Source: Bacteroidota bacterium
GTDB lineage: Bacteria > Bacteroidota > Ignavibacteria > Kapaibacteriales > UBA2268
Direction of reading: 5' to 3'
Length of the DNA stretch: 64,000 nucleotides
NCBI GenBank assembly: GCA_004322215.1
Contig: SCSM01000024.1
Coordinates: 42,729-106,728, forward strand
Below, piece by piece: positions 46,917-49,569 of the stretch; positions within the stretch are counted from its first letter, which is position 1, and every line of letters starts with the position of its first letter. The position numbers and the translations under genes are program-made. The notes under the pieces are model-generated. The model was not told the origin of the DNA. It searched no databases and saw only the letters and a program-made list of their open reading frames with translations.

Positions 46917-48317
46917 TTATTTGTCCTTAAAATATCTCAGATGTTCAGGGAAAAAGATTCTGTCGAAAATACCGATACTGAGACCGATATAAGGTCTGGA
47001 AAAGCTCATTGGTTTACCGAGTTGTCTCATCATATCCGAGCCGAACCGCCTCACTGTCGAACCGCTTGCATATCCGACAGCTAAACCGAGGTTAATTCCT
47101 TCTGTAACTCTTAAATTCAAACGTCCGCCTAAATGAAAGATTTCCGACGGATAATAATTATATTCAATAAATGGCTCGACAGACAACTCATCCATTATTA
47201 CGGTTTGCCAAATACCCAATCGAAGCGGCAGAATTCCCATTCCCCATTCATCGTTGCCGAGAACTATGAAATTTATAAGTGAAGTCCCTGCATATAGTTT
47301 CCAGTCAAGTAAAGGCAAAGCAACGCTTGCGTTAGCAAGTCGAAGTATGTAACCTGTTAACAGAGTCGAAGAATTATTAGTATTATATATTGATGATGCT
47401 CCCGAATTTAATAATATCATTTGTGTCAATCCGATATCCCATGAAGAATGTTCATGGTCTTTCCATTCCCTGTAAGTCTCGGGGACACGGTTAAGGAAAT
47501 CAAGAACTGAAATTCCAATACCAAAATAAGGAAAGACCGATGTTACTGATTTAATAGTTGAAGAGTTAAATGCAGGGCTCATTTTCACCTGAGGACTGCC
47601 TTTGGGATTTTGCCCTGCAGCTAGTCCGAGATAAGCTCTGACATTTAATCCACCTATTGAACCCACATCAATTGAACCGGCTAAATTCAAATATTGAGAA
47701 GGATACCATCCTATACCGGTATGTGCTGTAATTGCAATATATGGTATTTGTTCTCTCAGGAACCATCTTTTTCTGATGTATAAAGGTGCAATACTTGCAA
47801 GCGCATATTCGGTACGTGCATCGGGCATAATGATTTCCAAGCCGCTCGTTCCGTAAGTCCAATCTTTAGCATCCCTGAACCAGCGTAGCCGCCACTCAAC
47901 AACTCCGAAGCGATACAATCCTCCGCTGAAGATTTTACCCGTACCTCCTGTATAAGATGTTTTCAGGTTTTCGAAATCCGGAAATACCCCAAACATTCCC
48001 ATTCCTGCGGCATAATTGGAACCACTTCCGATTAATCCGACACTTTCGAACAATCCGAGCCGTATGAAATTCGGGTATTCTCGAGTTACAGTACTGTCCC
48101 TTTGAATTAAGTCCCGTTTGGATTCCACGGTCCTCGATGAAGAATAAATAATGCCATTATCCCTGTTCCCCGGTGCATTCTTGTCAATATATGATGTAGT
48201 CGTATCCATTTCCGATATTGTATAAATATCAGTCTCTGTCCTCGAATATGAAATGCATCCCCAAAACTGAGAAGAAACCACTATTGTAAAAAGAAGAAAT
48301 AGTAAATACTTTTTCAT
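46917..48317 (-). CDS. Lipoprotein/outer-membrane protein of unknown function
   Basis: Lipobox-like SSQFWGCISYS; amphipathic beta-rich sequence throughout. Confidence 0.65.
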   Translation of the reverse strand: MKKYLLFLLFTIVVSSQFWGCISYSRTETDIYTISEMDTTTSYIDKNAPGNRDNGIIYSSSRTVESKRDLIQRDSTVTREYPNFIRLGLFESVGLIGSGSNYAAGMGMFGVFPDFENLKTSYTGGTGKIFSGGLYRFGVVEWRLRWFRDAKDWTYGTSGLEIIMPDARTEYALASIAPLYIRKRWFLREQIPYIAITAHTGIGWYPSQYLNLAGSIDVGSIGGLNVRAYLGLAAGQNPKGSPQVKMSPAFNSSTIKSVTSVFPYFGIGISVLDFLNRVPETYREWKDHEHSSWDIGLTQMILLNSGASSIYNTNNSSTLLTGYILRLANASVALPLLDWKLYAGTSLINFIVLGNDEWGMGILPLRLGIWQTVIMDELSVEPFIEYNYYPSEIFHLGGRLNLRVTEGINLGLAVGYASGSTVRRFGSDMMRQLGKPMSFSRPYIGLSIGIFDRIFFPEHLRYFKDK

Positions 48318-48373: not shown

Positions 48374-48386
48374 GTTTCACAGAGTA
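48374..48386 (+). repeat. Inverted repeat arm (left) flanking the GxxExxY gene
   Basis: GTTTCACAGAGTA, exact reverse complement of 48806-48818. Confidence 0.8.
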
Positions 48387-48388
48387 TA

Positions 48389-48760
48389 TTAGAGAATGAA
48401 ACGTCTTATGACATCTTTCAAACTTTTAACATTGAAATTTATCAATAATCCAATTTGGCACTTTGTCAACCTTAGATATGTTAACATTTGTGCCACATGA
48501 ATATCATTTATTGCATCAATAGATTTAATCTCAATAACAACTTTGTTATCCGCAACTAAATCTGCCCGATAGCCACGTTCAAGTTTAATCTCTTTATATA
48601 CTAATGGAATTTCTTTTTGTTTACTAACAGAAAAACCTTCTTTTGTTAATTCATAAAACAAGCACTCTTCATAAGCAGATTCAAGCAATCCAGGACCTAA
48701 TACTGAATGGACCTGAAAAGCGAATCCCAATATTTTCTCCGTTAACTTATTTATATCCAT
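48389..48760 (-). CDS. GxxExxY protein (PD-(D/E)XK_3-like)
   Basis: GFAFQVHSVLGPGLLESAYEECLFYELTKEGF (GxxExxY), YRADLVADNKVVIEIKSI; internal ATG at 48760 preferred over the 48850 start. Confidence 0.88.
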   Translation of the reverse strand: MDINKLTEKILGFAFQVHSVLGPGLLESAYEECLFYELTKEGFSVSKQKEIPLVYKEIKLERGYRADLVADNKVVIEIKSIDAINDIHVAQMLTYLRLTKCQIGLLINFNVKSLKDVIRRFIL

Positions 48761-48785
48761 TTTTAAAATTAAATTTGATTTTAAT

Positions 48786-48826
48786 CTCCGTGAAACTCTG
48801 TGATTTACTCTGTGAAACTCTGTGAT
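48786..48826 (+). repeat. Two 22-bp-spaced 19-bp repeats upstream of GxxExxY, containing the right inverted repeat arm
   Basis: CTCCGTGAAACTCTGTGAT (48786-48804) and CTCTGTGAAACTCTGTGAT (48808-48826). Confidence 0.85.
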
Positions 48827-48909
48827 ACAACAATAATTTTTATTGAACAAGGCTTATACTTATATTTCACAGAGTCCCTAAGAGTTTCCCATAGGGTCTC
48901 ACGAGATTA

Positions 48910-49569
48910 TTATTCTACACTTACATCTAATGAAACGAATCCCTTCAATTCAGCATGTAACTTATCCCCATTCTTGATTTCACCTACTCCTTCAGGTGTA
49001 CCTGTAAAAATACAATCTCCCTCGCGCAATCCGAAAATTCCGGATAAATAGGAAATCAATACGGCAACGCTTCTCTCCATCTCTCTTGTATTTGTTTGCT
49101 GTCTCAATTCACCGTTTATTTTCAATTCTACATCAAAAACCGGAATATTATTTTCAAATTGAGATGCTGGAACAATCTTTGATATAGGTGCTGATGTCCT
49201 GAATCCCTTTGCCACTGCCCAGGGATGACCGTTTGTCTTTGCCTTGTTTTGTATATCACGCAATGTTATATCCAAGCCGACTGCATAACCGGCAATATAA
49301 TTTATTGCATCACTGGCACTCACATTATCACAATCCTTCCCAATAATAACTACCAACTCAACTTCGTGATGAGGCAAATTAGAAATCTCAGGTAATATTA
49401 CTTTTCCACCGTCAGGTGTATATGCATTCGGTGGTTTAAGAAAAATAATCGGGTCTTTTGGTACTTCTGAACCCATTTCTTTAGCATGTTTTGAATAATT
49501 CTGTCCGACACAAAACATTGTGCCGACCTTCATTTTTCTTCCGTCTGAAAATTCGTAATCCATAATCAT
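48910..49569 (-). CDS. Fumarylacetoacetate hydrolase family protein
   Basis: FCVGQNYSKHAKEMG, PIIFLKPPNAYT, HHEVELVVIIGKDC, GDCIFTGTPEGVGEIKNGD. Confidence 0.92.
   Translation of the reverse strand: MIMDYEFSDGRKMKVGTMFCVGQNYSKHAKEMGSEVPKDPIIFLKPPNAYTPDGGKVILPEISNLPHHEVELVVIIGKDCDNVSASDAINYIAGYAVGLDITLRDIQNKAKTNGHPWAVAKGFRTSAPISKIVPASQFENNIPVFDVELKINGELRQQTNTREMERSVAVLISYLSGIFGLREGDCIFTGTPEGVGEIKNGDKLHAELKGFVSLDVSVE

Follow-up and report, generated by a model that had tools for sequence, protein, structure and literature searches.

The window, a 64,000-nt stretch of a Bacteroidota contig (SCSM01000024.1), carries on its minus strand a GxxExxY gene enclosed by short iterated repeats. Along the gene strand, the order is a hydrolase gene, a decayed CTCTGTG array, a four-unit CACAGAG array, GxxExxY, one CTCTGTG unit and a lipoprotein-like gene. 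The left neighbour (48910..49569, minus strand) belongs to the fumarylacetoacetate hydrolase family (PF01557) and lies beside the lipoprotein-like gene in G001–G003, G015 and G022. The right neighbour (46917..48317, minus strand), which has no Pfam or NCBIfam matches, is recognized by synteny, and both genes serve as syntenic anchors. The most plausible coding region is 48389..48760 (minus strand), with an ATG start at 48760 and a product of 123 aa; a longer ORF, starting with TTG and reaching 48850, incorporates translated repeats. Its 5' extension (48761–48850) renders the arrays as HRVNHRVSRR, and annotated GxxExxY proteins with such repeat-derived N-termini probably have starts called too far upstream. 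The only other GxxExxY copy in this genome (L002, G000:C2:116765–117103) contains two internal stop codons and has no array nearby.

A sequence-only reading of the locus had described a nuclease-like gene bracketed by a perfect 13-bp inverted repeat, with two 19-bp repeats 22 bp apart and a further unit upstream, all of which we recovered. The downstream array (48374..48386, minus strand) is a single unit, GTTTCACAGAGTA, inverted with respect to the upstream array and forming the exact reverse complement of TACTCTGTGAAAC at 48806–48818. The upstream array (48786..48826, minus strand) comprises four CACAGAG/CACGGAG units at steps of 10, 22 and 32 bp on the gene strand, and includes the two 19-bp repeats (48786–48804 and 48808–48826; 95% identical, 22 bp apart). 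The additional inverted unit at 48865–48875 lies in an outer upstream array of opposite orientation (48864..48904, no strand assigned), consisting of one intact CTCTGTG unit (gene strand) and decayed units of ~10 bp; together with 48789–48825, this array forms an imperfect hairpin (inverted pair I1, 70% over 37 nt), to be compared with the gene-less inverted pair of G002. The repeats exceed chance: with at most one mismatch, ACTCTGTGAAA occurs in 7 copies in the window versus 1.4 expected, a number reached in 0 of 100 shuffles. Three of its six exact occurrences in the whole 4.2-Mb genome fall within 500 bp at this locus, and the reversed control pattern is absent from that genome. The 13-bp identity reflects two array units, not a transposon terminus, and the inverted material extends to ~48904.

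The hydrolase and lipoprotein-like genes are adjacent in relatives, too. In G003, a member of the same genus with about 80% identity, the gene is present and the arrays on either side of it are longer. Two sister species lack the gene, G001 carrying six units in one orientation and G002 two arrays in inverted orientation, and representatives of two other genera (G015 and G022) have a short clean gap with neither gene nor arrays. Accordingly, the gene and the arrays either were added later or have been lost, and arrays are able to exist on their own.

The GxxExxY protein

The window gene encodes an ordinary member of the GxxExxY family, matching TIGR04256 (E 3.5e-44, 149.9 bits versus a cut-off of 35, positions 2–115 of 116) and PF13366 (PDDEXK_3; E 2e-41, 141.5 bits versus a cut-off of 22). 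To our knowledge, this family has no known function; in the open-access PMC literature, it is named just in passing. Conserved positions among 54 relatives include H18, G22-x-G24…E27xxY30, G63YRxD67, E77xK79 and Q91xxxY95, of which H18, D67, E77, K79, Q91 and Y95 are invariant, and the eponymous motif corresponds to residues 24–30. The protein displays the D…(D/E)xK signature, the His, the QxxxY motif and the fold of Cas4/RecB-type PD-(D/E)XK nucleases, with fold matches at E > 1e-3, and the catalytic motifs are intact; we read the active site as a minimal version of the Cas4/RecB type. The AlphaFold (AF2) model has a pLDDT of 95.8, and its nearest folds are Cas4 SSO0001 (4ic1), the Hjc resolvase (2wiw) and lambda exonuclease, all weak matches (best E 2e-3, TM < 0.5); no convincing solved relative was found by sequence. 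Thus, GxxExxY resembles the Cas4/RecB-type nucleases and Hjc in the His, D, ExK and QxxxY residues and in its best structural matches (4ic1 and 2wiw), but differs from them in its length of only 123 residues, its own GxxExxY motif, the lack of conserved Fe-S cysteines and a marginal sequence similarity. Membership in a defence system was considered and rejected, given that known defence families yielded only a marginal match to the PADLOC Cas4 models (E about 1e-3).

The family is represented in 152 of the 297 genomes sampled from the window's phylum group, about half, often by several copies (1–12 per genome, decayed ones included). GxxExxY genes at the Flavobacterium hemW site described below have a dN/dS of about 0.08, indicating that they are maintained by purifying selection. 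A GxxExxY gene very similar to the Flavobacterium copies is present on a contig labelled Rhizobium (L114, CALPLL020000220.1), which is probably mis-binned.

Inverted arrays around GxxExxY genes

The expectation of the sequence-only reading that the motif would recur beside other GxxExxY genes was borne out in a set of 80 loci gathered by protein similarity alone, in which 7-mers were counted without any assumed motif. CACAGAG is found upstream in 26 of 80 loci (0.9 expected) and CTCTGTG downstream in 29 of 77 (0.7 expected). The most enriched upstream 7-mers are CACAGAG, CGCAGAG, CGCAAAG, CACAAAG and TAACCRC, and those downstream are their reverse complements along with GGTTAAA; array tips of the form TTTAACC…GGTTAAA recur in many loci. 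The same layout of inverted flanking arrays is seen in loci assigned to Planctomycetota, Acidobacteriota, Chloroflexota, Verrucomicrobiota and Gammaproteobacteria. At least two units lie within 200 bp on either side in 66 of 76 loci versus 20 of 659 distant windows, and 52 of the 76 have an inward-facing unit pair; units in the expected orientation outnumber the opposite ones both upstream (137 versus 21) and downstream (156 versus 45). Inverted flank matches of at least 30 within a locus characterize 67% of loci, compared to 12% across loci and 0 of 61 far controls. The median match between upstream and reverse-complemented downstream flanks is 33 for the same gene, 20 for other genes and 19 for distant DNA; hence, the two arms of a locus belong together. 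Some loci have drifted units, namely, CACGGAG (L086), TAGGAGT (L130) and GCAATGG (L128), but the inverted iterated plan is kept. When unit types are mapped onto a tree of 130 proteins, they change 22 times, as opposed to 57 with shuffled labels, which indicates that the arrays travel with the gene; gene and arrays together constitute a single unit. An alternative layout is exemplified by L288 (G510:C12), in which GxxExxY has a complete, similar hairpin on each side in direct orientation. We found no description of the flanking arrays or their repeat sequences in the open-access PMC literature, although an earlier description elsewhere is possible.

Spacings between units of the same orientation peak at 9–10, 21 and 31 bp, that is, about helical turns, which places the units on one face of the DNA, as a protein reading a single face would need. 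One subfamily in G270 is built from 9-bp CTYTGTGNT units; each arm has three of them, and two positions in every unit are free. The arms were picked by best match, so that the conservation of the unit is here partly by construction. Across 18 hairpins of G270, a small sample, the free positions show no covariation between the arms, which weakly points to protein sites rather than a conserved folded strand; on the same grounds, hairpin structure was rejected as the conserved feature. Helical phasing and conserved unit positions, with intervening ones varying independently between the arms as in protein sites, would also fit operators at which GxxExxY represses its own and some neighbouring genes, the dispersed copies being regulatory and non-mobile. 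This interpretation nevertheless appears improbable, because the arrays often lie just behind stop codons in short intergenic gaps and not just in promoters, inverted arrays are found on the 3' side of the gene as well, and a pure repressor would not need the conserved catalytic residues.

Gene-less arrays and their dependence on the gene

Solo copies, which the sequence-only reading had proposed to look for, do exist: gene-less arrays are present elsewhere in GxxExxY genomes, in intergenic DNA. Across the 297 genomes, at least two CACARAG pairs occur in 83 of 152 genomes with the gene versus 4 of 145 without it (p 8e-26), and at least two CGCARAG pairs in 80 of 152 versus 7 of 145 (p 2e-21). 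The mean number of CACARAG pairs is 6.1 in the presence of the gene and 0.3 in its absence, compared to 0.20 and 0.15, respectively, for the reversed pattern; reversed-pattern controls gave no comparable excess in gene-bearing genomes. These counts include gene-adjacent arrays, yet the per-genome numbers (up to 110) far exceed those of gene copies. At the genome level, gene-less arrays therefore depend on the gene. Arrays are found in 11 gene-less genomes, and 45 of the 152 gene-bearing genomes have fewer than two matches to either exact pattern; because the counts rely on exact patterns and miss drifted units, unit drift (CACGGAG, CACTAAG, TAGGAGT, GCAATGG) accounts for some of these 45. In G270, two array subfamilies coexist, each found both around GxxExxY genes and alone. 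The dominant unit type in the flanks is also the dominant type genome-wide in 16 of 22 informative genomes, a modest signal.

RAYT (Y1_Tnp) genes were considered as the true owners of the arrays and rejected. Arrays are present in only 2 of 79 genomes that carry RAYT without GxxExxY, and 20 RAYT genes, nearly all from array-bearing genomes, have 0–1 units each in 2 × 420 bp, being flanked instead by other repeats, such as GGGCTAAAGCCC. Among GxxExxY genomes, at least two pairs are found in 79 of 131 when RAYT is also present versus 4 of 21 when it is absent, and this higher frequency could reflect a general tolerance of repeats. Shared lineage or such tolerance could, in principle, explain the entire pattern, with genes and arrays accumulating without a functional link, considering that the co-occurrence is partly phylogenetic and that array counts rise with RAYT. 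We give this explanation hardly any credence, however, because the association of gene and arrays holds under shuffling within families (66 versus 52.4 ± 2.4; 0/10000) and among RAYT-bearing genomes (p 1e-19), and because the arrays abut GxxExxY rather than RAYT genes.

Occupied sites, mobility and known systems

Occupied and empty states can be compared at three sites, namely, the window site, the hemW/cyclase-family gap of Flavobacterium and the radA operon of Bacteroidales. Among 73 hemW loci, a few of them duplicates from the same genome, the gap is short (17–24 bp) in 3 and holds a gene-less stretch of 50–100 bp in 33 and a longer insert in 33, mostly GxxExxY between arrays; a GIY-YIG gene is present in 3, and one locus is masked. 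In the radA operon, B. finegoldii has an array–GxxExxY–array insert where Parabacteroides has a 13-bp gap; in Phocaeicola massiliensis (L419), this gap contains a different gene. At the window site, the gene is missing from two sister species and the whole element from two other genera, but at ~70–80% identity the sequences at all three sites are too divergent for the junctions to be read, and the collections, with one genome per species, offer no strain-level junctions.

Many of the 33 gene-less hemW stretches are hairpins of the CACAGAG/CTCTGTG-type family, whereas others are unrelated, including hairpins of type ACGCTGATAAAACGGATGCAGGCAACGCTGATAAATCCGTAAAATCCGCG in L253, L271, L281, L291 and L296. 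In the three species with the small GIY-YIG nuclease gene (L248, L249 and L263), this gene is located between the short inverted repeats TTTCAGGATCT and AGATGCTGAAA, possibly a second nuclease–repeat pairing of like logic. Most gene-less stretches fold into hairpins (about -15 to -28 kcal/mol), and unrelated hairpins can fill the same gap, as would be expected if the arrays were ordinary intergenic hairpins, that is, terminators or mRNA stabilisers, beside or into which the gene was merely inserted. Terminators are needed by all bacteria, yet genomes lacking GxxExxY have hardly any of the arrays; furthermore, several arrays are one-armed, and the two arms show no covariation at variable positions. 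We consider this account very improbable.

The sequence-only reading had interpreted the locus as a MITE-like cassette with terminal inverted repeats. The inverted flanks, solo copies and empty sites stand: the arrays do provide terminal inverted repeats of the kind seen in MITEs and insertion sequences and, as with MITEs and their parent insertion sequences, short gene-less copies have the ends of the gene-bearing ones. A conventional minimal transposon, with GxxExxY as the transposase, the arrays as terminal inverted repeats containing internal binding sites and the gene-less copies as MITEs, would further account for the recurrent TTTAACC…GGTTAAA tips, for the 1–12 gene copies per genome, some of them decayed, and for presence and absence at fixed sites. 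The predicted target-site duplications were not found, neither 26 gene-less nor 58 gene-bearing copies having an excess of duplications of at least 5 bp (offsets 0–8, lengths 3–9), and a 4-bp TTAA at the copy ends is indistinguishable from the palindromic tip. No near-identical copies were seen within genomes and the loops of gene-less copies, as in G270, are non-homologous, so that any recent movement is hypothetical. Matches were found in only 8 of 72,556 plasmid records and none in the phage set, and the 13-bp repeat is no terminus. In addition, the system differs from MITEs and insertion sequences in having no DDE transposase and in its arms of iterated units, and no similarly small PD-(D/E)XK protein is known to us to transpose by itself. 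Collectively, the missing duplications, the lack of near-identical copies and the minimal carriage on plasmids and phages render a plain transposon the less likely reading. The term 'nonautonomous' probably has the relationship the wrong way round, since it is the copies with the gene that resemble a resident source, on which the arrays without it seem to depend.

The closest known parallel is the REPtron, in which TnpA-REP (RAYT) is associated with REP/REPIN sequences (PMC8266576). Both systems combine a single gene, short inverted repeats, dispersed gene-less copies in intergenic DNA and lineage-specific repeat variants. However, the enzyme here is a PD-(D/E)XK nuclease rather than an HUH tyrosine transposase, instead of GTAG-tagged palindromes there are inverted arms in which ~7-bp units form phased arrays, and the RAYT genes of GxxExxY-bearing genomes carry other repeats. 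Because the protein matches PF13366 only, the defining HUH Y1 enzyme is absent, and the GxxExxY system is REPtron-like without being a REPtron; processing as folded single strands, in the REPtron manner, receives no support from arm covariation in the 18 hairpins.

We therefore favour, with moderate confidence, a REPtron-like two-part system, in which a minimal Cas4/RecB-type nuclease would act on iterated sites at its own gene and at dispersed gene-less copies. Its two parts are GxxExxY, the PD-(D/E)XK nuclease, and an accompanying set of ~7-bp units (CRCARAG/CTYTGYG and relatives), repeated about one helical turn apart in inverted arrays. The protein would most likely bind several units along one DNA face, both next to its own gene (in cis) and at the dispersed arrays (in trans), and may there nick, cut or process ends. 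One step further from the data, this cutting could spread or maintain the arrays: nuclease action would keep them present, and DNA bounded by arrays, whether or not it contains the gene, might occasionally reach new intergenic sites via host repair or replication. More tentatively, a second class of repeat propagation, independent of HUH enzymes, could exist in several phyla, with GxxExxY proteins as its dedicated enzymes and recognition of phased sites driving both spread and upkeep; other solitary nucleases, such as those of the GIY-YIG family, may do likewise with repeats of their own.

The arrays provide a candidate DNA target for GxxExxY, which opens its function to direct testing by binding and cleavage assays. 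Should the partnership be real, RAYT/REP would not be the sole example of a bacterial nuclease with dispersed repeats of its own, and a set of common intergenic repeats, the CACAGAG, CACAAAG and CGCAAAG arrays, would be explained.
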